DNA of 52,821 bases from a virus, in the IMG/VR virus record IMGVR_UViG_3300010397_000052, positions 1 through 52,821 of that record, one strand, 5' to 3'. Shown piece by piece: positions 3,210 through 31,100 of the stretch; the first letter of the stretch is position 1; each line of letters begins with the position of its first letter. The position numbers and the translations under genes were made by a program. Below the pieces are notes generated by a model. It did no database searches, was not told where the DNA came from, and worked only from the letters and a program-made list of their open reading frames with translations.

Positions 3210-4496
3210 GTGTACACCATTCACAATCGCTGCCGTGCCTGCAACTTTGGCCCTCCTATTCTCCCTGGCGGAACAAAAGCCGGAGCCAACGCCGATCGCC
3301 TCCTGCCTGCTTTCAGCCTTGGGGTTCAGCCACTCGCTAACGATTTCTGCCAGGACGCAGAGGAGCGAGCCGGTTTTGCGCCGCTCGAGATTCTTCTCTG
3401 CCCTCAATGCGGTTTGGCGCAGTTGAGCGTAGTTGTCGACCCTGGGATCCTTTACGCCAAGGATTATCCCTACGTAACCAGCAAGAGTGACACCATGCGG
3501 CAACATTTTGAGCTCTTGTGGAATGACTGCAGCGCGCAAGCCTCCTGCAAAACCGTCCTCGAGATTGGCAGCAATGACGGCGATTTCTTGAATTACTGTC
3601 GCAGCCACGGCGCAGAAGCTGTGATCGGTATCGAGCCGGCATCAAATCTGGCGGCAGCGGCCGAAAAGCAGGGCATCCGGACGATCCGCGATTTCTTCAA
3701 CCCCGTCTCAGCCGCGATGGCGAGCCAAGCGATGCCCAAAGTGGGGATGATCTTTGCCCGTCACGTCTTTTGCCACGTACCAGACTGGCAAGCCTTCATG
3801 GCCAACTTGCAACTCCTGGCTGGGCCAGAGACGCTGATTTGTATCGAGGTGCCTTACGTGATGGATCAACTCAAGGCGATTAGTTTTGACCAGATTTATC
3901 ACGAGCACTGCAGCTATCTCTCCATCCGAGCGATCAAAGCCCTGCTCAACGGCGGCCCATTCTGCCTCAAGGATCTCAAGCACTACACCATTCACGGCGG
4001 CGCGATTCTGCTCATGATCCAGCGCCGGAGCCCTGAGATAAAGGCCAGCCAAACGGTCCTCGAGTACCTTGACGCGGAGAGCGCCACTCAAAAAAGCTGG
4101 CAGGAATTTGCGGAGAAAAGCTCCGACGCGATCGAGAAGCTCAAAGGCTTGATCAAACAACTGCGCAAAGAAGGAAAGCGCGTTGTGGGCTTTGGAGCTT
4201 CCGCCAAGAGCACCGTTTGGATTAACGCCATGGGGCTCTCCCGCGCTGATCTGTCCTGCGTCTACGATTGCACTCCTTCAAAGTGGTATCGGTACATTCC
4301 CGGCACGGATATCCCGATCGTCAACCAGGGCGGCTTTTACGTCGACGATCCGGAGTATGCCGTCATCTTCGCTTGGAATTTCGCGCAGGAAATAATGGAT
4401 AAGAACCGAAAATGGATGGAGGGCGGCGGCTCCTTCATTGTCCCCATCCCTGAGGCGAAAATCTATCGCGCTGAGGCTTGCTCCTGCAGCGTTTAG
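3210..4496 (+). CDS. Zinc-binding sugar C-methyltransferase family protein
   Basis: The 428-residue protein has the three-part architecture of sugar C-methyltransferases such as TylC3 and NovU. An N-terminal zinc-binding domain carries C8, C11, C64 and C67; a SAM domain has motif VLEIGSNDGDF (116-126); the C-terminal domain contains VVGFGASAKST (about 324-334). The region around YHEHCSY is typical of the family. The family normally adds a methyl group to C3 of an NDP-4-keto-deoxysugar. The start is GTG 3210, three bases after the previous stop. It is the last gene of the modification cassette before the portal. No sugar-nucleotide dehydratase or epimerase is present, so the substrate must come from the host. 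Confidence 0.9.
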   Translation: MYTIHNRCRACNFGPPILPGGTKAGANADRLLPAFSLGVQPLANDFCQDAEERAGFAPLEILLCPQCGLAQLSVVVDPGILYAKDYPYVTSKSDTMRQHFELLWNDCSAQASCKTVLEIGSNDGDFLNYCRSHGAEAVIGIEPASNLAAAAEKQGIRTIRDFFNPVSAAMASQAMPKVGMIFARHVFCHVPDWQAFMANLQLLAGPETLICIEVPYVMDQLKAISFDQIYHEHCSYLSIRAIKALLNGGPFCLKDLKHYTIHGGAILLMIQRRSPEIKASQTVLEYLDAESATQKSWQEFAEKSSDAIEKLKGLIKQLRKEGKRVVGFGASAKSTVWINAMGLSRADLSCVYDCTPSKWYRYIPGTDIPIVNQGGFYVDDPEYAVIFAWNFAQEIMDKNRKWMEGGGSFIVPIPEAKIYRAEACSCSV

Positions 4497-4503
4497 TCTT
4501 GCA

Positions 4504-4544
4504 GTGCTCACCGCAAGGGTTTATTGCCCACGGTGAATGAGCAC
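4504..4544 (+). promoter_or_regulatory. Hairpin holding the portal start codon in a bulge
   Basis: GTGCT (4504-4508) pairs with AGCAC (4540-4544), and CACCG (4509-4513) pairs with CGGTG (4531-4535). An inner GGG (4517-4519) can pair with CCC (4527-4529). The only interruption on the right arm is AATG (4536-4539), which contains the portal ATG at 4537. As RNA this would place the start codon in a bulge and could limit initiation. The pairing is directly visible; the regulatory role is inferred. Confidence 0.5.
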
Positions 4545-6891
4545 CGCGAAAGAAGTAACGGATCGTTGGGATAACGCCTCCCTCGTAAATCAGCAAGTTT
4601 GGGATTGGCGCTTAGCCGATCTGCCTCGCGGAGAAAATCGCACCATTTTGGATCGCCTTTACAACGGGGATCCGCCCTTCGATGAGGCGCTCGCGGAAGA
4701 GAATCAGGTAGAGATCAACCGCAATAACCTCGAGGGCCCTAACCTCCTGGGCAACGCTCGCCGGCAGTGGAACTCCGCAATGCTCAAGTCTGGTAATTTC
4801 TTCAATATCGCCGTTCACCGCGGAGCACGGAACATGCGGCGCGAGTACGGGCACACCATCACCAAGCACATCAATCGAGTACTTCGAAAGAGTATGCCTT
4901 ACAAAGAGCAGCGGCGGCAGACCGGCGCGGCCGTCATGCTCCATGGCATCGGGCCCACCCATTGGGACACTCGCCGCGGCATGGTCCCCGATGTAGTTCC
5001 GATCTCGAGCGTAATGGTGCCAAGTGAAACGCTGGTATCCGGCGCGAACATCGATCGCTTTGCCATTTTCCGAGAATACACCCCGGCTCAGCTTTACACC
5101 CTCACGCACGGTCCAAAAAAGGATCCTGGCTGGCAGATGGATACGGTTATGAGCCAATGGGATTACGTGCGCCAGATGACGCAGAAACAGCCAAACGCGA
5201 CGGCTTACCAGTACATGCCGGAGCGGATCGAGGAGCTCGCCAAGCAGGATTTGGGATTTTGGGGCTCTGATGCTGTGCCCACGATCGATTGCTGGGACTT
5301 TTACTTTCGCGGAGCCAAGGACACAGACGGTTGGTACCGGCGGATCATCCTTGATTGGGGAGTTACTCAGGAAAATTACAAGCAATACCCTGCAGGCGGG
5401 AAACCTCCGGAAAAGCCGGACAATAGCAGTTTCCTTTACACCTCCGGCGATCGGCGCTTTGCCAACTCGCTCAACGAGATCATCCACTTCAACTTTGGCG
5501 ACTGCTCCGCGGTTACTCCGTTTCGGTACCATTCAGTTCGCTCCCTGGGCTGGATGCTTTGGGGTGTGTGCGATCTCGAAAACCGGTTGCACTGCAAATT
5601 CAATGAGGCAATTTTTGAGCAACTCCTCTGGTTCTTCCGAGTCGCCGGCAATGCCGATATGACGCGCATCAAAAAGGCGCTGTTCAATCACATGGGCGTA
5701 ATCCCGGCCGGAGTGGCCATGGTCAAGAATGATGAGCGCTACAAGCCCGATGCCGCGTTGATCGAGATGGCTTTCAACCGCAATCAATCTGCAATGCAGC
5801 GCTTTTCCTCGAGCTTCACGCAGGACGGAGGCAAAAACGAAAAGGAGATGACGGCAACTGAAACCATGGCCAGGGTTAACACCGTCAATCAGCTTGTCTC
5901 AGGCATGATGCAACTGGCTTACGAATACGAGGAGGCTAAGGATTACGAGATTTGTCGGCGCGCCTGTATCCGCACGCTCCCCGATCCCATGGCCAAAGCT
6001 TTTCAGCGCGCCTGCCTCGAGGACGGAGTGCCGGAGGAGATTTTGGACGTCGATTGCTGGGAGCTCACTGAGGAGCGCACGCTTGGCTCTGGAAACAAGC
6101 AAATCGAAATGGCTCAGGTTCAGTTCCTGCAGCAACTTCGGCCGAAACTCGGGCCCGATGCGCAGCGCAAAGTTGACCACATTTCGATCGAGTCCGCTTT
6201 GGACGATGCCGCGATCGCTGAAGATCTGGCTCCGCTCGAGGGGCAAACCAAAGTCAGCAGTTCTATGCATGACGCGATGCTCTCTACTGAGCGGCTCATG
6301 CGGGGGCTCATATTTGTGCCCTCCCCTGACATGGTGTACGAAGATTATGTGAAAGTCTGGTTAGCGGACCTTACACAGATGGTTCAAGGGGCTGTGGAAT
6401 CCGGAGGGATGGCATCTCTGGCCGATATCATTGGCTGGCAGACCATGGATCGCACGATTGAGTCTTTCCTGCAGATCATGGACTCCGACGAAGAGCAGGC
6501 AGACAAGGTGCGCGGTTACCGGCAGCAACTCTCCGAGCAAATGAACGAGGTAAAAGCCTTTGTCCAGCGCCTGCAGCAACAGATGAAGGCGCAACAGACT
6601 AACGGAGGTAACGGCAACGGCGAGGCGCAAGCTGCAGTGGCGGCAGAGCAGGCTAAAACCATGGCTGAGATACAGGCAAACCAAGCCCTGGCGGCGCAGA
6701 AGCTCAAAAACGCTGAGGCGAGCCATGCGCAAAAGACGGCTCAAAGGCAGGTTCAGTTTGAGATGGATCAGCAGCGCGAAGATCGCAGGACTAACGCTGA
6801 GATCCGCCGAAAAGCCGATCAACACGCCCTCGATATCACTGCCGGCCGAATCAAAACGCTTGATCAGGCGACGGAAGAGGAGCAAGCATAA
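4537..6891 (+). CDS. Portal protein
   Basis: The 784-residue protein has the length and composition of the large portal proteins of podovirus-like phages, which form the dodecameric ring where DNA enters and leaves the head. The N-terminal half is rich in Trp, Asn and Arg (VWDWR, LDRLYNGDPPF). The middle has the long helical segments expected for the stem. The last 100 residues are a Gln/Ala/Glu-rich coiled coil. Position supports the call: terminase lies upstream across a cassette, and scaffold and capsid genes follow. No catalytic motif is expected. I did not recognise a close named homologue, so the call rests on size, order and overall pattern. Confidence 0.8.
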   Translation: MSTAKEVTDRWDNASLVNQQVWDWRLADLPRGENRTILDRLYNGDPPFDEALAEENQVEINRNNLEGPNLLGNARRQWNSAMLKSGNFFNIAVHRGARNMRREYGHTITKHINRVLRKSMPYKEQRRQTGAAVMLHGIGPTHWDTRRGMVPDVVPISSVMVPSETLVSGANIDRFAIFREYTPAQLYTLTHGPKKDPGWQMDTVMSQWDYVRQMTQKQPNATAYQYMPERIEELAKQDLGFWGSDAVPTIDCWDFYFRGAKDTDGWYRRIILDWGVTQENYKQYPAGGKPPEKPDNSSFLYTSGDRRFANSLNEIIHFNFGDCSAVTPFRYHSVRSLGWMLWGVCDLENRLHCKFNEAIFEQLLWFFRVAGNADMTRIKKALFNHMGVIPAGVAMVKNDERYKPDAALIEMAFNRNQSAMQRFSSSFTQDGGKNEKEMTATETMARVNTVNQLVSGMMQLAYEYEEAKDYEICRRACIRTLPDPMAKAFQRACLEDGVPEEILDVDCWELTEERTLGSGNKQIEMAQVQFLQQLRPKLGPDAQRKVDHISIESALDDAAIAEDLAPLEGQTKVSSSMHDAMLSTERLMRGLIFVPSPDMVYEDYVKVWLADLTQMVQGAVESGGMASLADIIGWQTMDRTIESFLQIMDSDEEQADKVRGYRQQLSEQMNEVKAFVQRLQQQMKAQQTNGGNGNGEAQAAVAAEQAKTMAEIQANQALAAQKLKNAEASHAQKTAQRQVQFEMDQQREDRRTNAEIRRKADQHALDITAGRIKTLDQATEEEQA

Positions 6892-7343: not shown

Positions 7344-8717
7344 ATGCCAGCAAACGCTCCCTCGGCTCCGGCCGCTCCCGCCAAACCTGTAGCCGCGCCA
7401 AAACCAGCGCCAGCGCCGAAACCGGCCGCGGCCACTCCTGCTCCGGCCGCTCAGCCAAAGCCAGCGCCCAAGGCAGCGCCGAAACCGGCCGCACCTGAGC
7501 GACCAGCGATCCAGCCAAAGCACGAAGTTGACGGCGATTGGCTCAATACCGTTGGCAAAGAGCTCGAGGACTTGGATGCAACCGGAAAAGTCACTCGCCC
7601 TGCGCCGAAACCCAAAGCCAAGCCCAAGGCAGAGGTTCCGGACGCTCCGGACGCTCCGGACGCACCTGCAGAAGAGGAAACACAGACTGAGATCCAGCCT
7701 CCGGACGCTCCGGACGCTCCCGAGACACCCGCGCCAGAGGTTCCGGAAGAGGCAGATCTCAAAACCAACGCCGGTTTGCGCAAAGCTTTCGATCGCGCTC
7801 AGCTAAAGATCAAAAACGAGCTCGAGCCGGAGCTCACCAAGGCGCGCACGCGCATTAAAGAGCTCGAGAGCCGGGAGCCGGAAGAGGTTACCCCGCTGCG
7901 CGAGAAGCTCACCGCGATCGAGAAGCGCAATCAGGAGCTCGAAAATGAGATTGAGTACGTGAATTACTCCTCGAGCAAAGAGTTTCAGGAGAAATACGCG
8001 CAGCCTTATCTCAATGCCTGGAATCGAGCGCTTAACGATGTTCAGCAACTCACGGTAGAGACTGAAAACGGCGAGACGCGGCAAGCCACTGAGGAGGATT
8101 TGCTTTACATCTCGAGGCTCAAGCTGGGCGAGGCGATAACGCAGGCTGACGCCATGTTCGGCCGCGGCGCGCCAACCATTCTCCGGCATCGCGAGCTCAT
8201 CCGTGAACTGGCGGAGGCTCAAGACAATGCTCTCAGGACTGCCAAGGACAAAGGCGGGGAGCGCCTCAAAGCACAGCAGGCGCAATCGCAGCAACAGACG
8301 GAGAAAATGCGAAAAATGTGGACGCAGACCAATCAGGCGCTCGCTGAGAAATACAAAACATGGTTTGCTCCGGAAGAGGGAGATCAGGAGGGCAACGCGC
8401 TCCTCGATAAAGGCCGGAAGCTGGCCGATCGCATGTTTAGCCCAACGGAAGAGACGCGGCCGAAAACGCCAGAGGAGGCAGTGCGATTGCACGCGCTCAT
8501 TTACAACAAGGCGGCCAATCACGATCGCCTCGCGCTCCGGCTCAAAAAAGCCTCCGCTCGAGTTGCTGAGCTCGAGGAATCCTTGAAGCAATACGAGGAG
8601 AGCGAACCGCATGGCGGCCGTCCTGGCGCTGGCGGCCGTCCGAGCTCCGCCACTTCTGCAGCCAACGAGTACGAATCTGAGATCGATGCTCTCTCAGCCA
8701 AGGGCCCGAGACGGTGA
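7344..8717 (+). CDS. Probable capsid scaffolding protein
   Basis: The 457-residue protein starts with about 130 residues of low-complexity Ala/Pro/Lys sequence, including tandem DAP repeats, followed by a long charged alpha-helical region (ELEPELTKARTRIKELESREP and onward) predicted to form coiled coils. A basic, Ser/Gly-rich C-terminus closes it. Scaffolding proteins are typically helical, acidic and poorly conserved, and their gene usually lies between portal and major capsid, as here. They direct procapsid assembly and then leave. No protease gene is visible nearby. The assignment rests on position and shape. The stop overlaps the next GTG (GTGA). Confidence 0.65.
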   Translation: MPANAPSAPAAPAKPVAAPKPAPAPKPAAATPAPAAQPKPAPKAAPKPAAPERPAIQPKHEVDGDWLNTVGKELEDLDATGKVTRPAPKPKAKPKAEVPDAPDAPDAPAEEETQTEIQPPDAPDAPETPAPEVPEEADLKTNAGLRKAFDRAQLKIKNELEPELTKARTRIKELESREPEEVTPLREKLTAIEKRNQELENEIEYVNYSSSKEFQEKYAQPYLNAWNRALNDVQQLTVETENGETRQATEEDLLYISRLKLGEAITQADAMFGRGAPTILRHRELIRELAEAQDNALRTAKDKGGERLKAQQAQSQQQTEKMRKMWTQTNQALAEKYKTWFAPEEGDQEGNALLDKGRKLADRMFSPTEETRPKTPEEAVRLHALIYNKAANHDRLALRLKKASARVAELEESLKQYEESEPHGGRPGAGGRPSSATSAANEYESEIDALSAKGPRR

Positions 8718-8959
8718 AATACGCAAACCTCACGGCCGCGCAGCTTGCCAAACTCATCAAGCGCCGGCCGATGCAAGATCACGCGGCCGCCCACGTTTGG
8801 GCGGAGCGCATCGAATCTGATAAGCAGCGTTGCGCGCTCCCAAAAAAAGAACAGCGAAAGTTAGGCTTACTCCCTCCCGTCAATGGAAACTCAAAGAACC
8901 ATCCGGCCGCTCTCGTGCCAATGCCTGTTGCAGATCTTGCCGCATCGGGAAACGACTGA
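8714..8959 (+). CDS. Small hypothetical protein overlapping scaffold and co-chaperonin genes
   Basis: The 81-residue frame starts with GTG 8714, overlapping the scaffold stop as GTGA, and runs 77 bases into the following GroES-like gene in another frame. It begins with a Leu/Ala helix (AAQLAKLIKRRP) and has no recognised domain. The GTGA junction, used repeatedly in this genome, is the best evidence for translation. The C-terminal third may be constrained by the overlap. Confidence 0.6.
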   Translation: MKYANLTAAQLAKLIKRRPMQDHAAAHVWAERIESDKQRCALPKKEQRKLGLLPPVNGNSKNHPAALVPMPVADLAASGND

Positions 8960-9281
8960 CTCAGGGCTGTTTCTGCCGGATATCGCGCACGATCGGCAGA
9001 GGGGTGACAAAGAGAAACCGGCTCATGCTCTGGTGATCGCCGTTGGGCCTTGGCGCAAAGCCAAAAACGGATATTCGATCCTCCCTGAGATTAAGCCTGG
9101 AGACAAAGTTTTGGTGTCGTTTTACGCCGGGCAGAAGCTCACTCGTTCAATCGGATCCCACCTGCGCCTGTGCTCCATCGATGACGTCCTTGCCGTCCTG
9201 CAGCCTCAGACCAAAGCGGAAAGGTTGGACGCAAATCGGGAGGCGATCCTCGATGCCGTTTTTGCGCCGCTTGAAAAATAG
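8883..9281 (+). CDS. GroES-like co-chaperonin
   Basis: The 132-residue product fits the GroES/Cpn10 fold. It opens with IRPL followed by a beta-strand (CLLQILP), has a mobile-loop region around TTDSGLFLPD, then a long insertion. It continues with ALVIAVGP, the PGDKVLVSFYAG strand pair, and ends with LCSIDDVLAVL, matching the ExDILAI end of GroES. Co-chaperonins cap the GroEL ring; T4 gp31 and RB49 CocO do this for the phage capsid protein. Lying directly before the major capsid gene makes the same role likely here: helping host GroEL fold the capsid subunit. The start is fixed by the conserved IRPL, so the 77-base overlap with the previous gene is probably real. A short Lys-rich tail follows the fold. 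Confidence 0.78.
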   Translation: METQRTIRPLSCQCLLQILPHRETTDSGLFLPDIAHDRQRGDKEKPAHALVIAVGPWRKAKNGYSILPEIKPGDKVLVSFYAGQKLTRSIGSHLRLCSIDDVLAVLQPQTKAERLDANREAILDAVFAPLEK

Positions 9282-9482
9282 CTCTTGACCCTCTCACCCT
9301 CCCGAGAGTATTGGTTCCCGCGATCAGTGAATTGCGCGAGCCCCGGTCACTCGCAAGTCCAGTGCGACTCAGGACTCTAAAAAAGCAGCCGCTAAGCTCC
9401 CACCGGGAGTCACCCGCCTGATAGGACGGAGAGTTAAGCAAACGTCCGTTAACCTTTAACGTCCGATCAAAATTTTAGTTTT
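9282..9482 (+). promoter_or_regulatory. Leader region of the major capsid gene
   Basis: This 201-base gap precedes the major capsid gene. A weak promoter-like pair is visible: TTGACC (9285-9290) and TATTGG (9309-9314) with an 18-base spacer. CTCCC (9397-9401) and GGGAG (9405-9409) form a small hairpin. AACGTCCG occurs twice just before the gene, and GGACG upstream can pair with CGTCC. The last bases before ATG are A/T-rich (CAAAATTTTAGTTTT) with no Shine-Dalgarno. A dedicated promoter and leader for the most abundant protein is plausible but not proven. Confidence 0.4.
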
Positions 9483-11030
9483 ATGGCACTCAGTTGCAAA
9501 CAGTTCACGGATTACCTGAGCCGGAAGTCCGAACACCTTGACGATAATATCATCCTTTCGATGCACCCGATCGACACTTGGATCGGGCACGTTTCGATCG
9601 GCCGCTTTGCGGCAGAGGATGGCGTTGAACACACTTTCGATCGTTTCGAGAATGTTTTCCCTGATCTCCGCGGAGCCTGGGAGGACGTTTCGGCCGGCAG
9701 TTGCATTGGCCAGCCTTGCGACCCGTCGACCACAAAGATCGGCTTGGGCTTCACCCGAGACAGCTACAAGCTGCAGCGCAAGTCCTACGAAACTGATCTC
9801 TTCTGTTTCGACCAGATTCTTTCCGCCGATCGCGCCAAACAGCAGTTTGCCCACGTCATCAGGGTTAACCGGCGCGCCTCTTCGCTGATCACCTCGCACC
9901 GGTTCCGGACGGAGGCGATTCGCATCGCCAAATACAAATGGGCGACGGCCAACAATACGCTGGTTCCCATTACTGCGACCTGGGATAGCACCATGACCTT
10001 TTTGACGGTTTCAACTTTGCCAACCAGCAAGATCACCGCTCGCCACCTGCAACGGCGCGTCCAGCCTCAGATCCGCGAAGGCGCGCTCTCTGAGGACATC
10101 AATCGTTCCGTTCAACCCATGCTCGAGTTTGTAACCGATATGGATGAAGTCTGGAACATGGTTGAGGGCAACCCCGAGCTAACCGATCACTGGCGCTTCA
10201 CGGACTTTGCTGACGCTGAGAAGTACCACAAATACGGATGGGTTGGGAAGCTGGGCAACTATGGTTTGCGCGCTGATTGGACTTCGCTCCGGTTCAACGT
10301 GTATTCGCAGAATGCGGACGGCACTACGACCCTGCAGATCGTCTACCCGTACACCAATGTTTCGGCCACGGAAGGCATTAAAGAAGTTGTGAATAACGAC
10401 TACGATAACGCCTATATCCAAGTCGACTTCATTTGGCACCGCAAAGCGATGACGTCCATGGTGCAGGACACCACGTCGATCAATCCGGAGATGCCTTTCG
10501 CCATGCGCGACTTTGCCGGAAAGTGGCAATTCGTGATGGATAACCTTACCTGTGGCACGGACGTAAACGGCAACCCGATCGCCGTGAACAACGAGCGCCG
10601 CAACAAGGGCAAATTCATCGCTGATTGGCGCTTTGCCACTCAGGCGGAATATCCTGAGCTCGCAGAAGCATTTTTCCACCTGCGCGAGCCGGCTTGCGTT
10701 GTGGACGTGCCCACCTGTAGCAGCGGCTCATACCCTGCGCAGAGCTACTCGAGCGCAAATGCTACCTGCCCCTCGAGCTCTACGGTCCTCACCTTTACGC
10801 CAGTGGCCAGCGGCTCCGGCGACTATGATATTCCGCAGGATTCGATCCTGTGCAACGGGTTGAACATATTCAATCCGCGCATCTACGGCGTAAGCACCCT
10901 GGCGCTGCTCGTTGCCTCGCTAAACACCAATCTCTCAGCAATGGGAACTTGGGCTGTCGCCAGCGCGACTACGATCACCCTCACCGGGGCGGTTTGCACC
11001 TCCGTCAATATCCCCTGGACGGTTGACTAA
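9483..11030 (+). CDS. Major capsid protein candidate
   Basis: The 515-residue protein lies where the major capsid protein is expected, after portal, scaffold and a co-chaperonin. Its long A/T-rich leader, strong hairpin downstream and large globular composition without membrane segments fit an abundant shell protein. The central part (QVDFIWHRKAM to WQFVMDNL) is mixed alpha/beta as in HK97-fold subunits. The last 110 residues are Ser/Thr-rich and beta-like (SSTVLTFTPVASGSG) with several cysteines and could be an added surface domain. I see no N-terminal delta-domain cleavage site. A decoration or other head protein is the main alternative. Confidence 0.75.
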   Translation: MALSCKQFTDYLSRKSEHLDDNIILSMHPIDTWIGHVSIGRFAAEDGVEHTFDRFENVFPDLRGAWEDVSAGSCIGQPCDPSTTKIGLGFTRDSYKLQRKSYETDLFCFDQILSADRAKQQFAHVIRVNRRASSLITSHRFRTEAIRIAKYKWATANNTLVPITATWDSTMTFLTVSTLPTSKITARHLQRRVQPQIREGALSEDINRSVQPMLEFVTDMDEVWNMVEGNPELTDHWRFTDFADAEKYHKYGWVGKLGNYGLRADWTSLRFNVYSQNADGTTTLQIVYPYTNVSATEGIKEVVNNDYDNAYIQVDFIWHRKAMTSMVQDTTSINPEMPFAMRDFAGKWQFVMDNLTCGTDVNGNPIAVNNERRNKGKFIADWRFATQAEYPELAEAFFHLREPACVVDVPTCSSGSYPAQSYSSANATCPSSSTVLTFTPVASGSGDYDIPQDSILCNGLNIFNPRIYGVSTLALLVASLNTNLSAMGTWAVASATTITLTGAVCTSVNIPWTVD

Positions 11031-11035
11031 ACACT

Positions 11036-11078
11036 TTCCCCACTTGCTGGCGGTAAGAGCGTGCCAGTGAGTGGGGAA
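11036..11078 (+). terminator. Strong hairpin after the capsid gene
   Basis: TTCCCCACT (11036-11044) pairs perfectly with AGTGGGGAA (11070-11078), and CTGGC inside the loop pairs with GCCAG. It starts five bases after the capsid stop. No U-tract follows, so it is not a textbook intrinsic terminator. It may instead stabilise the 3' end of the capsid message or act as an attenuator. Confidence 0.55.
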
Positions 11079-11095
11079 TGTTGGGTTGGAGTGGC

Positions 11096-11129
11096 GCGGC
11101 TCCCCTAACTCGGGAAGTGGGGGAGCCGC
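11096..11129 (+). terminator. Second hairpin after the capsid gene
   Basis: GCGGCTCCCC (11096-11105) and GGGGAGCCGC (11120-11129) form a perfect 10-bp stem with a 14-base loop. It lies 18 bases after the first hairpin and 24 bases before the next ATG. No U-run follows. Two strong stems in tandem suggest partial termination or message processing between the capsid and the next gene. Confidence 0.55.
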
Positions 11130-11153
11130 ATCCCCTCTCGAAAGTAAATCCTT

Positions 11154-11492
11154 ATGAAAGACACAGAGACGATGGACGAAGGGATGGACTCGCTTTATGG
11201 CGACGAAAAACCGGCCGCTAAAAGCAGCACCCCCGAAACGATCGACGAAAAGGAGCGGGAGGAAAACGCCGATACGGATATTCTCAAAACTGCGGTCCTT
11301 CAAACGGGCCCTGATGACAAAGTTGAGCCAGGGGATACGCGCACGGTCAAGGTTCTGGAAGTCTACGGCGAGACTTGCAAAGTCATGTGCGCGCCCAAAG
11401 AAAAGGAAACCCCTGAGGAGGAGGCGAGCCCCAACGAAGAAATCGATTCTATGAGCGCCGCTCACGATGAAGCGGGAGGCGCGCAGTATTAG
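11154..11492 (+). CDS. Small acidic protein
   Basis: The 112-residue protein is strongly acidic (clusters DEKEREENADTD and EKETPEEEASPNEE) with a short central beta-like segment (TRTVKVLEVYGETCKVMC). I do not recognise a family. It follows two hairpins after the capsid gene and precedes the Cys-module protein. A head completion or decoration role is possible from position only. No membrane or signal segment is present. Confidence 0.65.
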   Translation: MKDTETMDEGMDSLYGDEKPAAKSSTPETIDEKEREENADTDILKTAVLQTGPDDKVEPGDTRTVKVLEVYGETCKVMCAPKEKETPEEEASPNEEIDSMSAAHDEAGGAQY

Positions 11493-11525
11493 TGCCAGTT
11501 AATCCGAAAATCTGAGACATAAAAT

Positions 11526-11903
11526 ATGAGCTTAGCAAATTGTAACCTGAGCACACTGCAGACGGCCGCGAAGTGCTACGACTGTCTGAGCGCCACTGAA
11601 AAGCAGGCGCTAAAAGTGCGGTTCATGGCGGAGTTGTACAAAAAAGTTAGCGGCGTAGACCTGACAAACATCAATACCCTCAAGCGCACCGTTGCTTGCA
11701 TCGGGTGCGAGCCAGATTTCACCCTGGGCTCAATGGAGGTGGCGCTGTGGAAGAATGCGGCGGAAGTCGCCGGAGTTTCCATCCCGGCTACCATCCAGGC
11801 GCAGCGCGCCTTGATCTCCTGCGTCCCTTGCGGAGAGCAGAAATGGGCTCGAGCGGCAGAGGTTTATCTGCTCTGCCAACTCAGCCGGCGCACCATCAGC
11901 TAA
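11526..11903 (+). CDS. Cys-pair module protein (three modules)
   Basis: The 125-residue protein contains three CxxC pairs: CYDC (about residue 17), CIGC (about 59) and CVPC (about 100). Each is followed by a helix ending in a hydrophobic stretch such as EVYLLCQL. The same module recurs in the N-terminal third of the next gene (CFHCIP, CYQCIP, CLTC), so the two genes share a repeat family. CxxC pairs may bind zinc or form disulfides. The position in the virion block suggests a structural role. I know of no named function for this module. ATG 11526 lies after an A/T-rich leader (ACATAAAAT). Confidence 0.75.
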   Translation: MSLANCNLSTLQTAAKCYDCLSATEKQALKVRFMAELYKKVSGVDLTNINTLKRTVACIGCEPDFTLGSMEVALWKNAAEVAGVSIPATIQAQRALISCVPCGEQKWARAAEVYLLCQLSRRTIS

Positions 11904-11912
11904 GGTTAGCCC

Positions 11913-14417
11913 ATGGCTACCTGCTCGCCTCAGGCTTTGCCTCGAGAGTCGACGTGCTTTCACTGCATTCCCCCGCTTGAAAAGCACGTCCTCAAACTCT
12001 ATTTGCTGAACCTGCAGGCAGGCACATTCACGGCGCGGCAACTCTCCGTAGGGGCTACGCCTTTCCGGCCGATCTCAGGGCATCTCGCCCTGGCGGCCAA
12101 GGTTTACCTGTTGACTGTGATCAACGGGCTTTCCTTGTCCCCGAGCGCCCTCGAGGCGAGCGCCGCCTGTTACCAGTGCATCCCGAACAGCGCTCGCCTT
12201 GACGTCGAAACCTATCTCCTGGCCGTCAATGCTGGCGGCTCCCTCAATCCGGCGACACTGACCGGCCAGATCGGCCCTTACAAATCGCTGTTTCCGATTC
12301 GTGATCAAGTTGAGCTTTACCTGCTCAACATTTTGGCTGGCACTCTCTCAATCGCGGCGATCATGGCTGGCGCGAAATGCCTTACCTGCCTGAGCACCGG
12401 CCGCCTCGAGGAGATTTACATCAAGCTCCTGTGCATGGGCACTGGCGGAACTGGTTGCGTAGACGTTGCCGCCTCTCTGGTGCCTGTGATCACGGGTATT
12501 TATGACCCTGACTTGCATACGCTGATCGCTCTGAACATCGTTTTTCCTAAGGTGTGCTGCTCGCCAAGCGGATACCGGATCATCGCGCAAAACGGGCTCA
12601 CGCTGCAGACCGGCACAATTTCGGCCGCGCACGCAGGGGAAACCAATTACACGCTGCTCAATGTCGACGTGACTGGGATCCTGCTCCCTTACACTAGCCT
12701 GACCGTTAAGCAGGTTTGCTCCGGAGGGACACTCAGCGGCGGATCAAATAGCGTCGACTTTGACGAGCCTCTGGATCCTGTTGTGGTGGATTGGGCGGCG
12801 CGAGTAGTGATCAACGGCGGAGCCGCACCCTCCGTCAATAGCAAGTACGCATCCAACACCTTTATAGGCGCGCTGAGGACGGCCGGGATCTTCAGCAAGA
12901 TGAAAACGATCAACATGGTTGCTCCGGACAACCTGATCGCCGCAGAGACTCCGCTCATAGTTGGCCCTGGCCTTGATCCCTGGCCCGATGTTGGCGCATC
13001 AAATTTTGTCGCTGCGGATCTCTCCCTTTACGGGCTGGCTTGCGACGGCACCAAGGCGCTCAATACCGGAGTTGGCGGCACTCAATTGAGCCTCGCCAGC
13101 GCAGGACTGACAATCGTTGCCTCGATACTCGATCCTAATCCGACCCTCACGCTGCGGTACGATATGGGCTATCTGAATGCGGCCGCGCAAGAGTATATGT
13201 TTGTGGCGGCAGATCAGAACTCGGGCGGCGTAGTTGGGCACGCAGGCGGCTCGAGTTTCAGCAGCGGTTTGATCACCAACACCGGAGCGGCTGACTCTTT
13301 TGCGGGTTACGTCTCTTACAATCGCACCTCAGTCGTGAGGGCGGATCTGTATTGGGCAAATAATGACGTTGCCCACTCCTCGATCGGGAACAACACCAAC
13401 AATCAGACTCTCGGGCTCAGCGCAGCGCCGATTTATTTCGGAGCCGTGCGCGACTCAGCCGGAGGGGCAATCCCGTACTACAGCAAGAACACACTCTCTT
13501 TTGCCGCGGTTCATGACGGGTTGACGGCCGCGGAGTCACTGGCCTTTTTCAATGCGGTTAATGCTCTCCGAACAAGTTTCGGCGGAGGCTGGGGGGACAT
13601 TGGCGATTCTTACGTTGGCAGTTGGTCAAACCGGATCGTAGCGGCCGGAGGCGTGACGCCAGGGGCAGCCAGCAAGAGCGCCGTTCACACCTTGGCCACG
13701 GACCTTTGGTCTGCAGGTATCATCAGAAAGATTTTGCACGCTATCCCGTTGGTTTCTGACAGCCTGATCGCGGCCATTACCCCGATCTTTTACAACGGGG
13801 TAGGAAATGCCTCCTGGGCCAATACCAATTTCATCCTCGCAGATCTCACAGCCAACGGGCTCCTGGGAGCAGCTACCAAATTTCTCAATACTGGCTTTAT
13901 CCCCAATGCTTCCGGCGCTGGCTTAACCGATGGCAGCGCCGGCTTGATCGTTTACACGCACACAAACAATGCAGTTGGGGTGCAGCATGAGATCGGAGTT
14001 TATTGGGCTGCCTTCCAATCCTTCTTTGGGTTGCTCACGGATTACAATGCCGGCAACACAGAGGGCGCAGCCTGGATGTACAGCGGAAACGACAATATCA
14101 GCACGGTCACCCCTGCCAGCTTGACCGGTTATTACGCTTTCCAGCGCACGACAACCTCACGCGCTGACATTTACTTTGCGCGATCGAACGTGGCGCACTC
14201 CTCGATCGCCAACTCAGTTGGGCTGATCGGAGGCACGGCTGCAGACAAAGCCCTTTTCGCTTTTGGTGCCAATAACAACGGCGGAGGCGTTACCGGCGAA
14301 TCACTCAAGCGCCTCTCGTTCATCGCGATCACCACGGGGCTTTCATCAGCAGAATCAGCTTTGGCTTACACCGCGATTCAAGCTTTCCGGACGGCGCTGG
14401 GCGGAGGAGCAGTCTGA
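11913..14417 (+). CDS. Large modular tail or fibre protein
   Basis: The 834-residue protein has three parts. Residues 1-190 hold five repeat units, each with a YLL helix; three keep a CxxC pair (CFHC, CYQC, CLTC) and two have lost the cysteines. A short beta-rich linker follows. From about residue 290 to 834 there are two tandem copies of a 270-residue beta-rich domain. Both start with an aromatic W followed by a V-x-x-G-G segment, contain LIAA-x-TP, an AHSSI string and an end near LS-x-AES-x-A-x-x-x-A-[VI]-x-A-[LF]-RT. The copy ends resemble lectin-like domains of tail proteins. It is probably a host-contact or decoration protein. ATG 11913 follows the previous stop by nine bases. Confidence 0.75.
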   Translation: MATCSPQALPRESTCFHCIPPLEKHVLKLYLLNLQAGTFTARQLSVGATPFRPISGHLALAAKVYLLTVINGLSLSPSALEASAACYQCIPNSARLDVETYLLAVNAGGSLNPATLTGQIGPYKSLFPIRDQVELYLLNILAGTLSIAAIMAGAKCLTCLSTGRLEEIYIKLLCMGTGGTGCVDVAASLVPVITGIYDPDLHTLIALNIVFPKVCCSPSGYRIIAQNGLTLQTGTISAAHAGETNYTLLNVDVTGILLPYTSLTVKQVCSGGTLSGGSNSVDFDEPLDPVVVDWAARVVINGGAAPSVNSKYASNTFIGALRTAGIFSKMKTINMVAPDNLIAAETPLIVGPGLDPWPDVGASNFVAADLSLYGLACDGTKALNTGVGGTQLSLASAGLTIVASILDPNPTLTLRYDMGYLNAAAQEYMFVAADQNSGGVVGHAGGSSFSSGLITNTGAADSFAGYVSYNRTSVVRADLYWANNDVAHSSIGNNTNNQTLGLSAAPIYFGAVRDSAGGAIPYYSKNTLSFAAVHDGLTAAESLAFFNAVNALRTSFGGGWGDIGDSYVGSWSNRIVAAGGVTPGAASKSAVHTLATDLWSAGIIRKILHAIPLVSDSLIAAITPIFYNGVGNASWANTNFILADLTANGLLGAATKFLNTGFIPNASGAGLTDGSAGLIVYTHTNNAVGVQHEIGVYWAAFQSFFGLLTDYNAGNTEGAAWMYSGNDNISTVTPASLTGYYAFQRTTTSRADIYFARSNVAHSSIANSVGLIGGTAADKALFAFGANNNGGGVTGESLKRLSFIAITTGLSSAESALAYTAIQAFRTALGGGAV

Positions 14418-22474: not shown

Positions 22475-23302
22475 ATGGACGAAGAAAACGAGCAGGATTT
22501 ACCCGATTACTCTCCGGAGGAGGGTCAAGATGAACGAGAGCCGGCGATGTTGCCCACGCCTGCTCCCGCCCCCGCGGCTGCTCAACTAAGCGCGCCTGTC
22601 ATAGCGCGAGCGGCCGCCCCTTCTCCGATTGCCCCGGGCGGCGCTGGCACTGCTGTGTACTCCCCCGAGCAGCAGGCTAGCGCCGCTTTCTGGCGCAAGA
22701 TGAATTATGAGTTGCAGGGGCAACCCCTGGCAGAGGCTGAGCAAGCGCTTTCGGCCGCGCTCAAGTTTCAGGCGATCCGCGGATATCAAAAGGATCTGGA
22801 AAACGGCAAGAGCCCCGGCGAGGCGCTCTCGCGCTGGGCCCCAATGATGTTCACGGCTCCAAAGTCCTCAAACCTGGGCAACGCGGCATCGATGGTGCGC
22901 GCTACCCGTGCGCCTGCGCCCATGGTCCGGACGGCCGGAGGGCAGATTTTTCAGATTCCGCCAGGAGGTGGCGCAGCAACGGCCCTGACTCCGGCTCCGG
23001 TTCGCCCTCCGCGCACGGATCCTTTCGCCCTCGCAGAGTTTGAGCTCAAGCTTAAGCAGATTGAGAAGCTGCAAGCGGATCTCGATGTAGAACCGGCCGG
23101 CAAAGGCCGCCAAGATATTTTGAAGCGGATCGACGTAGCTCAGCGCGAGGCAGCGGCTCTCCGCCCAAGCCCTGCAGCTACGGCTCCAACTGCTCCGGCC
23201 GCTCCTGCAGGCGGAGGGAATGAAGTGTTACGGTTGACAAAGAGCGGCCGAAAGGCTGTCTTTGACTCCGCAACAAAGAAATTCCTCCGTTATGCCCAAT
23301 GA
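22475..23302 (+). CDS. Internal virion protein candidate, Ala/Pro-rich
   Basis: The 275-residue protein opens with an acidic stretch (DEENEQDLPDYSPEE), followed by an Ala/Pro linker, a compact helical domain (ASAAFWRKMNYELQ to ALSRWAPMMF), another Pro-rich linker and a coiled-coil segment (FALAEFELKLKQIEKLQADL). It closes with a basic LRLTKSGRKAVFD end. No catalytic residues are apparent. Its stop lies inside the start of the giant gene (11-base overlap), so the two are probably made together. Confidence 0.6.
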   Translation: MDEENEQDLPDYSPEEGQDEREPAMLPTPAPAPAAAQLSAPVIARAAAPSPIAPGGAGTAVYSPEQQASAAFWRKMNYELQGQPLAEAEQALSAALKFQAIRGYQKDLENGKSPGEALSRWAPMMFTAPKSSNLGNAASMVRATRAPAPMVRTAGGQIFQIPPGGGAATALTPAPVRPPRTDPFALAEFELKLKQIEKLQADLDVEPAGKGRQDILKRIDVAQREAAALRPSPAATAPTAPAAPAGGGNEVLRLTKSGRKAVFDSATKKFLRYAQ

Positions 23303-26300
23303 TACGCCTCCGACCTGGGAAGAAACTCAAGAGCTTGCCGATACTGCGCCGCCCTCCTGGGAGGATACCTCTGAGTACGTAGAGCCCCCCGCTCCGCTCC
23401 GGCCGCAACGGGTTCGCTCTGCCATAAACCAGACGATTCAAGCGGTTTATCGGCCGCTCGATCTGCTCACAAATCCGGCCGTAGTCGCCGGTTCACAGAT
23501 GGGCCAGGAGCGCGCCAAGCGAGCCAGGGAGGCGCAGATGGGTGTAGTTGCTCCCGGCTCTTTCTTCCCCGTCCCTCAGCCGCTCGCAGAGCCCACTCCG
23601 GAGGACAAAGCTGCCGGAATGGATTTGGTGCGATCGATTACTTCCGTGCCTGGGCGAGTACTGGCAGCCGGAGCTCGCACCGTGCGCGACGTGCTTAGCC
23701 CTTCAACTTACCTGCCGGAGGATATGAAAGCGCCTCCGCCTTTTGTGATTAACACTCGAGGCGAGCAGCCGGAGCTCCGCCAGATGACGCGAGCGGAAGA
23801 GGCAGCGCGGGATCCCCTGCAGGGCCCTCGAGCGCTCATCCCGGTTCGAGGCACGCAGCTTGAGCCGGAGGGGAGCGAAGGCGCACAACTGCTCTCAGGA
23901 CTGAGCACGCCGGACAATATCGGGATCATCGCGGCCGGAGGTGCAAGCAAGATTGCCGGCATGGCGCTGCTCTTCAGCATGGCCCCCGGCATCTATGAGG
24001 ACGTGAAGCGGATCGCCTCGAGTGATGTTTCCCTCGAGCAGAAACGCCAATCGATCAACAATTTGCTGATCCCTCTTGTCCTGGGAGCGAAAGGCGCTTA
24101 CGAGCGGCCGATCCCTGAGGCTCCTCAGGTTTCGGGCCCTCCGGCATTGGGTTCGATGCTGCAGATACCGGAGGGAGCGCGGCCGCCAGTGGCGAGAGCG
24201 GCCGAACTGGTAGGGCCGCCTGTGCCCGGGCGTGCTAAGTTCTTGCGGCCGGAGGTTCCTGGCACGGCCGCGGAGCCGTATGAGACGGCACTTGCGACCA
24301 TTCGAAAGGCCAATGCCAGGACTCGAAAGCAGATTCAAGCGCTATTCCCTGAGCGGCGCTTGAAAAACGAGGAGGCTGCAGATCTCCGTGATGCTGCTTG
24401 GGGTGCACAACCTCAGCCAGAGCCTCCGGCTGCTCCTCCCAAATGGGAGCAAACAGAGCCCGTCACGCGTACGCCAGAAGATCGCGCAGCGATGGGGCAC
24501 GCGCAGGAAATTGACGCGGCCGCCGAAAGGCAAGCCAGCCCGACTCAAGAGCCTCCGCTCCCTGAGGAGCCAACCGGTACAACTGTGCCCAACCCTCCGG
24601 CTCCGCCCACGCCTGCCGGAGAGGGCGCTGTAAAAAGTGTGCCCACGCCTCCGGCTGACGTCGATTACACCGATCTCGAGCAGGCAAACAAACTCAGCGG
24701 CCAGGAACTGGTTGATCTGGTTCGCAGCAAAGGCTCCGGAATAACGGAGGCATCCTATGAGTTGGGCGCAAAGCTCACGCCTGAAACCAGGGCCAAAGCG
24801 CGCCAGTACGAAGAGGCTGCCAATGCCGAAACAATGGCTGTGCTCCAAGAGGCTCAGAAACTGGCACCTCGCAGCCTCGAGCGGCTCAAAGCCTCTGAGG
24901 GCGCTTTCGCAATGCAGCAAAAGAAGCAGCTTTTCAATGAGGCTGGCCGGTTCTATGACGCAATACAGGACGTCAAGAACGGTAAGGATCTCGCGCAGGC
25001 TGCAGTTGAGCATGGAGTAAAGGAAACGGACCTGCGCAGGGTGGCAGAAGCGGCTCCGGCTGAGGCGGCCGCGACGCTCGCGCCCAAGCCAGGAATGACG
25101 CGGCTCTATCACGGTGAAGGAGCCGCGGAGGGCGCTGGCGCTGGCGGAGGTTGGTTTACGGAAAATCCGGAGTACGCGGCGCAGTTCGGAAAAGTTACTT
25201 TTGTCGACGTGCCCAAAGAGGTTGCCGATGCGGCGCGCCAAGCGGCTCGAAATACCGGTACTGGAGGCCCTCATTTCATCCTCCCTGATGAATACGTAAA
25301 GCAGGCTCAGCCAATGGCGACGCAGCCAGGGCCCAAGACGTTTGACGTTACTCCGGAAGAGCCGCCCAAGCCCAACGCTTACAAGGTGGAATTTTTGCAC
25401 AGCAGCGGGGAATGGTTACCAGAGATCACTCCCTCAACTCTCGCAGAGGCGCGCAAAGAAGCAGCGCGGCGCTTTAAAAGTGGCGTACAGATTTGGCGCA
25501 TCCGGCCATATTACGGAGAAATTTCCGAGAGCTCCGGCCCGATGGGCTCAGAGCGAGTCATTAAAAGGGCGATCGAAAACCCTCCAGAGGACACTAGCGA
25601 ACAACTCGCAGCACAAAAGTCAGACTTTCAAGAGCAGCTTAAAAAGACTGAGGGCATTCTAGCCAAAGCCAAGCGGGAGGGTTACTCAGGTGAAGCCATC
25701 AAGCATTGGGAGGATCACGCCGCCAAACTCCGTGAGCTCATCGGGGAGGAGACGGCTCCGGTTGTGGAAACTCCGGCCGCTCCGGCTGGCCCTGATCCGC
25801 TCGATAGGGTTACGCTCGCCATGCTGCCACTCAAGCAGTGGATGAAGGTAACCAAAACTGATCAGCTTCCAACGGGTTACGAGTTTACCATGATGGCAAA
25901 GCGCCTGGGAGTGAAGCGCGATCGCAAAGCTGTCCTCGAGGCACTCCACAACGAGAAACGCCTGCGCGAAATCTTCAAGCCTTTCGAGCAACCCAAAGCG
26001 GCCGCTCCGGCTGAAGAGCTCCCTAAGCATCAAACCGTACGGGATGAGCAGCCAGAGAAACAGACTCAGGGCAACTATGTGGCGGAATGGCTGCAAAAAT
26101 ATCCCGAGGGTACCAAGCTGCCCAATGGTTTGATCTCAACTGAGCAATTCTGGAAAGAGGCTCACCATGACACGATCGAAAACATTCTGAGAGGCAGGCT
26201 CACCGGGATAAAGGCGAGCGCTGTTTCGCCGCAGGCTCTGCAGTCCTACCCTGATCTTTTGGCTCTCGCGAAAAAGAAAGGCGTGTCCATTCCTGCTCCC

Positions 26301-29300
26301 TCAACTGAGGTGCCAAAAATGGACAAGGCGGAGTTTGAGGCTGCCAGGGATGCCTATAGCGCGGATAAGTTTCCGACGATCCGAAAGCCATTTGCGAAAA
26401 ACGGGAAGCTTTACACGGTTGGATCGGTTTCTGGCCCTGCCGGTAAAGGTGTTATCGAGGCTCACGAATTGACGGAAGTTGCTCCGGAAACGCCCATAAC
26501 AAAGAAAGACTTTTCGACTGGAAAGCGAGGCTATGAGGGCGAGGTAGTCTCGTACAAAGGCAAGAAATACAAGCTGGGCCCAATGGAAACTTTCGAGGAG
26601 GCTCCGGCTGAAGCTTCCACCAAAGTTGTAGGACCGGAAACGAAACCGGCTGAGCCTGAGGCGACTCCGGTGCAAGCGGCCGAAAAAGAGCTTTACGACG
26701 CTGATCAGTTCACCTCGCAGGCTGCCTCCGCCGCGGAGAAAGCAACTGTTGCCTGGGCAACTCATGTTGAGGACGTCGTAAAACCTCTCAAAGAGAAGAT
26801 CCGCCAGATACAGGCGGAAGTCTCGCGCATGGAGTATGACGCGAACCGCACCAAAATAACCGGCAAGAATAAGCTCACCAAAAAGGCATTCCTCGAGCTT
26901 CACGGAGTTGCTTCCATCGATGAGGCTCAGGCTCTCTACAAAAAGAAGAATGCCGATTGGGCAGATCTCGAGAAGCAACTCGAGGAGGCAGAGGCGAAAC
27001 GCAAAGAGCTCGAGGCTGCCAAAGAGCGCCGCTCTAAAGAATGGTCTGCAGCGGCAACCCGAGCAGGCGAACTGCGCCGCAAGGTCTATCCGGACGTGAA
27101 GCAAGGCGACGTTGGCGGCCAGCCTCTCGGCCCTGAGGCGATCGGCCCTGGCTCCGCAGCGCGTCTCGAGTTTGAGGGCCCTGAGTTTGAGCCTCCGGAT
27201 CCTGGCGCTATTGGGCTCAGTGCTGGTTCCCCGTTCTACAACCGGCTCAAGGCTAAGTATCAGCACTTTTACCAGGGCATCAGCCAGCTATTCAAGCGCA
27301 GCGCTGACAAACAAATCCTGATGCAACTGGCCAATGCGGCTGACAATCTGCCGCGCCTCGCTGGGCATCGCGCCGGCCAAGGTATCAGGGAGCGCACCTC
27401 CGCCCCTGATCGCAGCGCCCTTACCTTTGTCATGCAGGCGCTCAAAATGTCCGGAGAGGGGCTCTCTGCCGAATCTGCGGAGCGCCTGGGAGAGCTCGAG
27501 TTTGCCGGGGATCCTGGCGCTTACCTGCGCACCAAGGCAACCGATATGGAAACCCTGGCGCAGCAGTTTCTCCATGAGGGCAAAAAGCTCAATGCGGAGG
27601 CTGCCATTGCGGCCGCTAAGGCGATGCGCTTTGCGATTCGCAACTTTGCGAGGCTCCGGCCGCTCGCGGATACCGTGCGCGCTCAGTTCGATAAGCAGTT
27701 TGAGCGTGAGGGAAGAGCCGGAATCTCAACCGACTACGAGAATTGGCACGTACCGCAGCGGCATGACTTGGATCTGATGACGTCCTCAGACCGGCCGATC
27801 GTCCTGGGCCATTCCCGCGCCGCCGGTACCGCAACCGGTTTCAAGAAAGCCAAGGTGTATGAGGATTACGCGACGGCGATCGAGAATGGGTTTGTGCCTC
27901 GCTCCCTCGATATCGCGGATCTGCTCGAGCACAGGGTTAACCAGGGAGAGCGCTTGGTGCAGCGTAAGGCGCTCTTTGACCGGCTCCGAGCCATGACAGA
28001 CCCTGTGGACGGTAAAAGCCTCGCGCAGCCTATCCCGCGGCGTAGCATACCCCGGCCGGATGGAACTGTTGACGTGCAAGAGCACATTCCCCTTGGGTAT
28101 CAGCCTTTCGAAGTGATTCCCGGGTACCGGATGGCTATCCATGAGGGCTACGGCCGGCTGATGCGCGCCTTAACAGGCACCTCTCAGCTTGCAGAATCGG
28201 CCGCCGTTGGCGCGCTGCAGGACATTGCCGGCATTGAAAAGCATATTTCCTTGGCTTTAGACACCTTTCACGCCTCGAGGACCATGCAGGCGGAGCTCTC
28301 GCTCACCGGCAAACTCTCCGTTGGCGCTCGCCAGCGCCTGGGCAGAGCCCTTGTCGAATACAATCTTGGCGACCTGCAGGCGGCCGTAAGTAACGGTTCC
28401 ATAACGCAGGAAATGGCCGATTACATCAAAACTCCCCGCCCAATCGAGGTTGGCGGCCGTACGATAAGGTTATCGCCTCACGCCTTGGTCCAACTTGGTG
28501 CCAGGGAGGGCTTGAATCTGGCGCGCTTTAACGATGCCCTTTACCGGGATTGGATCCGCGAGTTTCCCGTGAGCGGCAAGGTGAATAAATGGGTGTTCGA
28601 CAAGCTGACTCGCTCCGCGATCACTCACGGCTTTCTTGCTGAGTTTGAGAGGGTTGCGAAGCAAAACCCGCAACTCAATGCGACGCAGGTAGCGCGCAAG
28701 GTGGCGAGTGACGTCAATGTGCTCTTTGGCAACCTGCAGAAAGAGAGCATTTTCCGCAATCCATCGGTTAAATCCATCCTGCAAGTCCTATTCCTGGCTC
28801 CGAATTGGGTTGAGGCGCTGGTACGCCGGGAGGGGAGGGCCCTGAAACAGGTTGCGGAAATCCCCGTGCAAATCGCAAAGGGGCAACCTGTCCATTTTGG
28901 CACCGCCGCCAAGGGCATCGGCTCAGGACTGGCCGCTTACTTCGTTGGCACTCAGTTGCTGAACCTGATCACCCGGGGACACCTCACTTTCAGCAACGAG
29001 GAGAAAGGCCACAAGTTGGATGCCTGGATCCCCGACGTCACGGGCAAAACCAAGGGCTATTTCATCTCGCCGCTCTCAGTATTCGGAGAGGTAACCCATG
29101 ATATCCTTAGGTACGCCAGGGAGAAACCGGACCTATGGGCGGCCGTCAACCAGATCGGCTCAAACAAAATGGGCAACCTGGGCAGGCTCCTCGAGGTGAT
29201 GATCTCCGGCCGGGATCCGGCCAATAACGAAAAGCTCATCGGTACTGGCAGGCGCGCAATCACGGCCGCAACCCAACTCGTACCGGTACCGATCTCCCTC

Positions 29301-30729: not shown

Positions 30730-31100
30730 TAGTTCATCCTCTTTTTGTGCCCACTGGCGTTTTCCCATTCAACCCTGAGCTCTGAGGTGTCGCACCAATG
30801 CCCCCATTTCGCGTTGTCCCTCATTACTTCGTCCGGAGGCTGAGGCTCAATCAGTTTGTAGCGCGCTATCACGTAGAAGCCACTCGCGGCCGGTTTGGAT
30901 GCCCTGATATGGCAGAAGGAGGGCCCACCGTCTGAGAGATCCATTTTGTAAGCGTAGAGCTTTTCTCCTGGCCGCGGCTCATCGCTGAGCTCGTTAAGCG
31001 CATCGAACTTGCCGCCCTCCTCAGTAACCCTCAGCAAATAGGGAGCGCGTTTTAGCATCAGCCTTTGGCCGGCTGCAGGACCATCATTAAAGCCTGTCAT
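30729..31100 (-). CDS. Conserved phage protein of unknown function
   Basis: The 123-residue protein has a predicted beta-rich core: MLKRAPYLLRVTE, FDALNELSDEPRPGEKLYAYKM, CHIR, GFYVIARYKLIE. The order of a R-A-P-x-x-L-R-V start, a D-A-L region and a PGE-K-x-x-x-Y turn is a pattern I associate with a common phage family without known role. It lies between the DnaC-like gene and the HTH gene, with a four-base ATGA overlap at the start. No catalytic or metal motif is evident. Confidence 0.65.
   Translation of the reverse strand: MTGFNDGPAAGQRLMLKRAPYLLRVTEEGGKFDALNELSDEPRPGEKLYAYKMDLSDGGPSFCHIRASKPAASGFYVIARYKLIEPQPPDEVMRDNAKWGHWCDTSELRVEWENASGHKKRMN

Follow-up and report, generated by a model that had tools for sequence, protein, structure and literature searches.

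A GroES homologue encoded beside the capsid gene of an uncultivated bacterial virus

GroES is a nearly universal bacterial gene, and why phages bring a GroES of their own is still argued for T4, chamber size being set against a subtler fit. Gp31 of phage T4 is reported to replace GroES for gp23 (~56 kDa), to have a mobile loop of 22 compared with 16 residues, to form a chamber that is 8% larger and to be without roof loops (PMC6318259); T-even gp31 homologues of comparable size are described as preferring their own gp23 (PMC3012670). GroES is also reported as one of 13 core genes in 82 HTVC023P-type genomes (PMC9599517), so that finding a GroES gene among head genes is in itself no novelty.

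The locus described here lies in an uncultivated bacterial virus (IMG/VR record IMGVR_UViG_3300010397_000052, positions 1-52,821), and this whole stretch of 52,821 nt is referred to below as the window. From its sequence alone, a GroES-like co-chaperonin had been predicted directly upstream of the capsid gene, as the phage's own lid for host GroEL. Features of the locus are collected in Table 1.

Table 1. Coordinates of the GroES gene, its parts and the neighbouring head-module features in the window
Feature	Position	Strand	Basis
784-aa gene at portal position	4537..6891	+	Conserved position; putative role
Small conserved gene, 90 aa	7067..7339	+	Gene family F4, 41 members; 9 phmmer matches
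Scaffold-like gene, 457 aa	7344..8717	+	Conserved position; putative role from position and composition
Conserved 81-aa gene	8714..8959	+	Other frame; overlaps end of 7344-8717 and first 77 nt of GroES
Phage GroES/Cpn10 gene, 132 aa	8883..9281	+	Pfam PF00166, PHROG 3188, PDB sequence matches, AF2 model
GroES exchange stretch, unalignable to L010	8930..9272	+	blastn blocks end at 8929 and resume at 9273
Putative GroEL-binding tripeptide L29-F30-L31 (I25-V26-L27 of E. coli GroES)	8967..8975	+	Alignments
7-residue insertion HDRQRGD, residues 36-42, after GLFLPDIA of mobile loop	8988..9008	+	Alignments
Trp57 (Gly in bacterial GroES), preceding roof segment	9051..9053	+	Alignment
C-terminal extension, residues 108-132, predicted helix 111-127	9204..9278	+	Outside Pfam match; AF2
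TTGACC box, possible -35 of capsid promoter	9285..9290	+	TTGAC recurrence in relatives
Conserved leader of capsid gene, ~150 nt	9335..9482	+	nhmmer
Major capsid protein, predicted HK97 fold, N4-like, 515 aa, 57.7 kDa (calculated)	9483..11030	+	AF2, Foldseek, VIA

The GroES homologue and its mobile loop

The product of the predicted gene is a homologue of Cpn10/GroES, in family and in beta-barrel fold. Cpn10 (PF00166) was matched at E 2e-12 and 47.4 bits, well over the cut-off of 21.1, the match spanning residues 7-105 of the protein and positions 2-92 of the 93 in the profile, and PHROG 3188 ('co-chaperonin GroES') was matched at E 3.8e-11. GroES chains in the PDB were matched in a single-sequence search (E 1.5e-9) and also by a 15-sequence profile; T4 gp31 was not among the PDB matches listed for either search. 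The motifs that had suggested a Cpn10 protein (IRPL, PGDKVLV and DDVLAVL) were present in the 132-aa product as quoted. An AlphaFold2 (AF2) model built with the same 15 sequences was of moderate quality (mean pLDDT 77, pTM 0.61), and GroES structures matched it at Z 9 to 10.8 (best 8wuc, Z 10.8, rmsd 2.5 over 90 residues), with T4 gp31 at Z 7.5 (1g31) and 6.9 (2cgt) and unrelated rows at about 5 and below; Cpn10 structures were likewise matched by Foldseek. The Cpn10 fold, on which the original prediction had staked itself, was thus recovered in the model.

The window GroES was at most 43% identical to 30 bacterial GroES, all of one bacterial class. Values of dN/dS were 0.26 (window vs L006) and 0.07 (L010 vs L007), and the gene is under purifying selection. 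The C-terminal extension was whole in only L006 among the other 14 aligned homologues.

The outer positions of the tripeptide, read from alignments, were Ile or Leu in 15/15 phage homologues and the middle residue was free (F, A, L, W, T, V, H or Q), a pattern that agrees with published GroES mutants, in which I25 and L27, and not V26, are required for GroEL binding (PMC5575113); by this pattern the GroEL-binding edge of the window GroES is intact. The insertion that had been noticed after the mobile loop amounts to seven residues and is missing from three aligned PDB chains. Lengths were compared over a loop segment running from L15 to V51, in 15 phage proteins and in 30 bacterial GroES loci that all came from the class of one Pedosphaera MAG. 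The segment measured 37 residues in the window and 30 (29 loci) or 31 (one locus) in the bacteria, so that all 30 were shorter by 6 or 7 residues. Among the 15 phage proteins it measured 30 (one), 33 (one), 37 (eight), 38 (one), 41 (one) and 44 residues (three), L015 being the single clade member without the extension (30 residues). Position 57 was Trp in 15/15 of the phage clade and Gly in 30/30 bacterial GroES, and the roof segment comprised 22 residues in 14/15 phage and 30/30 bacterial proteins.

Head genes and gene linkage in relatives

The capsid protein had no Pfam or PHROG match, its 38-sequence profile found nothing among PDB sequences, and no match was obtained among 50,697 phage records. 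Its AF2 model was again moderate (pLDDT 72.6, pTM 0.62). The best Foldseek match of this model was phage N4 (9e99, E 2.4e-10) and the best VIA-align match was Moo19 (Z 16.4, rmsd 4.8, 290 residues), with HK97 itself (1ohg) at Z 13.4; the structure matches cover the protein up to residue ~405. The model points to an HK97-fold capsid protein with N4-like phages as its nearest solved relatives, and the name 'capsid' that had been given to the gene after GroES is borne out by both structure searches.

In the window and its relatives the genes run in the order 784-aa gene, 90-aa gene, 457-aa gene, GroES and capsid gene, the gap between the last two being 201 nt in the window. No significant Pfam, PHROG or PDB match was found for the 784-aa product, and no PDB match for the product of 48752-50551, a putative terminase. 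The 457-aa scaffold-like protein has an Ala/Pro-rich start followed by charged, helical-looking sequence, and neither it nor the 81-aa gene matched a Pfam or PHROG family; homologous ORFs of the 81-aa gene were present in L006, L007, L008, L009/L018, L010, L012 and L022. Just upstream of the head module, 3210-4496 encodes a sugar C-methyltransferase-like protein (PF08421, PF13489, PF08484), an unusual phage cargo. Elsewhere in the window are a 2177-aa ORF that may encode a large virion protein (23262-29795; sole PHROG match weak, E 0.032), matches to a DnaC-like helicase loader (31097-31750, minus strand) and a phage exonuclease (32298-33329, minus strand), and a 189-aa protein with the DNA polymerase beta thumb domain PF14791 (46598-47167, minus strand, E 3.9e-12).

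To follow the linkage of the two genes, IMG/VR was scanned with the capsid protein, which gave 75 loci, and Pfam Cpn10 was sought in all 75 records, some of which may be fragments. Cpn10 matches were found in 15 of 38 records and in 7 of 37 records, five of these seven lying over the cut-off. Capsid identity was at least 60% in 17 of 76 records with the window counted, and in 16 of these 17 Cpn10 preceded the capsid gene in the same orientation, at a distance of 11-2652 bp in those relatives; the seventeenth record, L013, is truncated and starts only 429 bp ahead of the capsid gene. From the agreement of their genes and spacings, L009 and L018 appear to be the same virus. Among the other 59 records, Cpn10 over the cut-off preceded the capsid gene, again in the same orientation, in L055 and L056 (1065 bp), which are one virus by their identical gene tables; it was over the cut-off but elsewhere in L023, L058 and L077, and below the cut-off in L062 and L080. 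Further single-protein scans for GroES relatives yielded no new records. A 109-aa ORF in L016 (4974-5303), similar to the start of the capsid protein and preceding the full gene at 5512, is a partial duplication.

A collection of bacterial and archaeal genomes yielded a single match, L103:2338-3684, a capsid protein with 38% identity encoded on a 7.4-kb contig of a Pedosphaera MAG. In the class of this MAG 3 of 384 genomes matched, the one strong match being the same MAG; this hints, though weakly, that the family at large may have Verrucomicrobiota as hosts.

The region between GroES and the capsid gene bears on the further claim that GroES lies within the head operon. Of 64 distinct loci, 55 had TTGAC within the 300 nt that precede the capsid gene, compared with 24% (851/3519) of random stretches of the same loci, and the capsid gene may therefore own a promoter downstream of GroES. 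The TTGACC site was not called in a consensus promoter scan, in which promoter and terminator counts matched those of shuffled sequences. As for the claim itself, GroES does adjoin the capsid gene among head genes and overlaps the 81-aa gene, but with a TTGAC box between it and the capsid gene the word 'operon' needs care; a shared message is possible. The leader of the capsid gene was better conserved than nearby coding DNA, matching L007 at 118.0 bits over 130 nt in nhmmer despite a capsid dS of 0.82. It had no Rfam match and an MFE z-score of -1.0, and the consensus of eight leader RNA sequences contained 9 pairs with little covariation; a possible GTGGAC...GTCCAC hairpin was seen in the leaders of relatives.

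Exchange of GroES between close relatives

The capsid protein of L010 was 99.8% and its scaffold-like protein 97.6% identical to those of the window, whereas its GroES was only 61.1% identical. At the DNA level, blastn identity between the window and L010 was 94.4% up to 8929 and 91-97% over 9273-9316 and 9354-14404; eight other genes or gene parts were 88.6-98.4% identical, and GroES past its shared 47 nt was 53.8% identical. L007, with a capsid protein 93% identical, carries a GroES of the L010 type together with a truncated GroES of the window type nearer the capsid gene, in an 81-codon open frame. The GroES of L010 and L007 paired at 100/100 in a 41-row tree, and the phage rows split at 99/90 from 25 bacterial rows, all of one class. 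The difference between GroES and capsid identities in L010, the borders of the aligned blocks and the remnant in L007 together show that GroES has been exchanged while the capsid protein was kept. That one capsid protein occurs with two GroES types 61% identical argues against a tight fitting of lid to capsid protein.

Beside the L010-type GroES stands a minus-strand gene (L010:3976-4608 and L007:3227-3859), the L010 copy of which matches PHROG 4652, a family of unknown function. HNH endonuclease genes separate GroES from the capsid gene in L007 (4323-4811) and L008 (4289-4777), by PHROG matches, and in L009/L018 (L009:4124-4762), by sequence likeness. The PHROG 4652 insert gene or the HNH genes might have helped the exchange.

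Function and comparison with known systems

The protein is probably a working co-chaperonin lid on host GroEL for phage head proteins, inherited with the head genes and also exchanged. Seven GroES copies would form a heptameric lid, which would cap host GroEL through the Ile/Leu-x-Ile/Leu edge of the lengthened mobile loop, and phage head proteins would fold in the phage-modified cage so formed; the client would most likely be the 57.7-kDa capsid protein, a plausible assignment from the gene linkage and the T4 parallel. GroES would then be inherited with the head genes and separately exchanged, the most likely reason being change in the GroEL of the host. GroEL (PF00118) was found in none of the 22 records tested, the window included, and in 14 of 14 control genomes, which speaks against a phage-encoded GroEL partner in those 22 records. 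With the Cpn10 fold, the neighbouring capsid gene and the conserved linkage, this gives partial support to the original prediction of the phage's own lid for host GroEL.

The size of the capsid protein, which had been proposed as the reason for the lid, fared less well. Size was tested in those relatives whose record spans 50 kb or more and whose called capsid ORF reaches 510 aa, 20 records in all (510-626 aa), a count that omits records whose capsid ORF the gene caller missed. Cpn10 was over the cut-off in seven (L006, L011, L015, L016, L023, L032, L056), and no Pfam Cpn10 match was found in the other 13 (L019, L020, L024, L025, L031, L034, L057, L059, L060, L063, L065, L068, L070). Together with phages that carry GroES in the head module and have capsid proteins of ~300 aa, these large-capsid relatives weaken the idea that a big capsid protein is what calls for GroES; size by itself is not a sufficient explanation. 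It may not be the whole answer in T4 either, given the preference of T-even gp31 homologues for their own gp23 (PMC3012670).

Phages with small capsid proteins came from the named phages. The window GroES gave 13 weak tblastn matches there, 11 in unannotated records and 2 in annotated groS. A bacterial GroES query gave 80 records, 22 of which were examined, chosen for variety and annotation. In eight the GroES gene lay in a head module (HTVC027P, CRP-902, HTVC023P, DSL-LC04, ct2G2228, Pag-Yong1, ct2os315 and 023Pt_psg01), separated by three genes from the capsid or head gene; five of the eight have a portal or connector annotated upstream, and capsid protein length, measured in four, was 300-304 aa. 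These eight GroES had 34 or 35 loop-segment residues and none had Gly at 57. Among the other 14, two reached at least 33 residues (PBR31, with GroES two genes before terminase, and ET-ABTNL-9, from a record without annotated genes) and 11 had Gly57; BcepSaruman (short gene named portal nearby) and Mvi-JY20 (record start) were counted as lying elsewhere. A loop segment of at least 33 residues was therefore present in 22 of 23 head-module GroES, the 15 of the window clade included, against 2 of 14 elsewhere; a Fisher test on these counts treats related sequences as independent, and no weight is placed on its p-value. The two head-module groups did not join in a quick tree with weak supports, and they are counted as two lineages and not as 23 independent cases. 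One open-access library, in searches not aimed exactly at this point, gave no paper discussing loop length by gene position.

A tentative generalization, which we regard as possible but somewhat doubtful, is that head-module GroES are a distinct functional class, swapped as separate modules to suit the GroEL of the host, with no change in the capsid protein, and that two lineages independently lengthened the loop segment and lost the Gly before the roof, whatever the capsid size. If so, the lid and not the capsid protein would be the host-adapting part. Natural tests are provided by near-identical phages that differ in GroES but not in capsid protein, by relatives without GroES whose capsid proteins are as large or larger, and by a distant small-capsid lineage with a long loop; together these cases separate a bigger cage for a big capsid protein from an adapter to host GroEL. 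Two features merit attention: the long loop, which is common to another head-module lineage, and the fact that GroES was replaced without a change in the capsid protein.

Other readings of the gene were weighed against a lid for head proteins. The protein might instead be a general co-chaperonin tuned to host GroEL, with several clients (portal, scaffold, tail) and a place in the head module that reflects expression timing. We consider this rather unlikely, since the place upstream of the capsid gene is kept in 16 of 17 close relatives and T-even gp31 homologues are described as preferring their own gp23 (PMC3012670); it would nonetheless accommodate one capsid protein living with two GroES types, the many larger-capsid relatives that do without GroES, the HTVC023P-type head-module GroES with capsid proteins of ~300 aa, and the TTGAC box, by which GroES and the capsid gene may be transcribed apart.

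The intact binding edge, and the location of the gene among structural genes in two phage lineages, fit folding better than a takeover of host GroEL, in which the lid would divert or block GroEL and the folding of phage proteins would be secondary; the longer loop and altered residue 57 could change the release cycle, but we judge such a takeover improbable. Least credible of all is a captured, functionless host gene or contaminating host DNA. GroES was indeed present in 53 of 57 genomes, yet the window protein is at most 43% identical to the 30 bacterial GroES of one class, groups with the other phage proteins on one side of a branch (99/90) that has 25 of them on the other, has dN/dS values of 0.26 and 0.07 for its gene and keeps a fixed place among phage head genes.

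Bacterial GroES (30 loci; E. coli 1aon; M. tuberculosis 1hx5) share with the window GroES the fold, the GroEL-binding edge and a 22-residue roof, whereas the window protein has seven extra loop residues, Trp57 in place of Gly and a C-terminal extension. GroES genes away from head genes (RaK2, PBECO4, Motura, Vibrio D93 and immuto, the last with GroEL) also encode a phage Cpn10, but these jumbo and other phages have 28-30 segment residues and Gly57, like bacteria. HTVC023P-type GroES (pelagiphages, Roseobacter CRP-902, Planktothrix Pag-Yong1) are likewise encoded among head genes, ahead of the capsid gene, and with 34-35 segment residues and no Gly57 they are longer than the bacterial 30, as in the window clade. 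In those phages three genes intervene and the capsid protein is ~300 aa, whereas the window GroES is last before a 515-aa capsid gene, and none of them was among the tblastn matches listed for the window GroES.

With T4 gp31, a phage co-chaperonin grouped here with RB49 CocO, the window GroES has in common the phage-encoded Cpn10 fold and a longer mobile loop, and the proteins concerned are of similar mass, gp23 at ~56 kDa and the window capsid protein at 57.7 kDa. T4 gene 31 is not known to stand beside gene 23. The sequence of the window GroES is nearer to bacterial GroES than to gp31. Where gp31 is described as being without roof loops (PMC6318259), the window GroES keeps a roof segment of 22 residues, the bacterial length, so that its loop is like that of gp31 and its roof like that of bacterial GroES.
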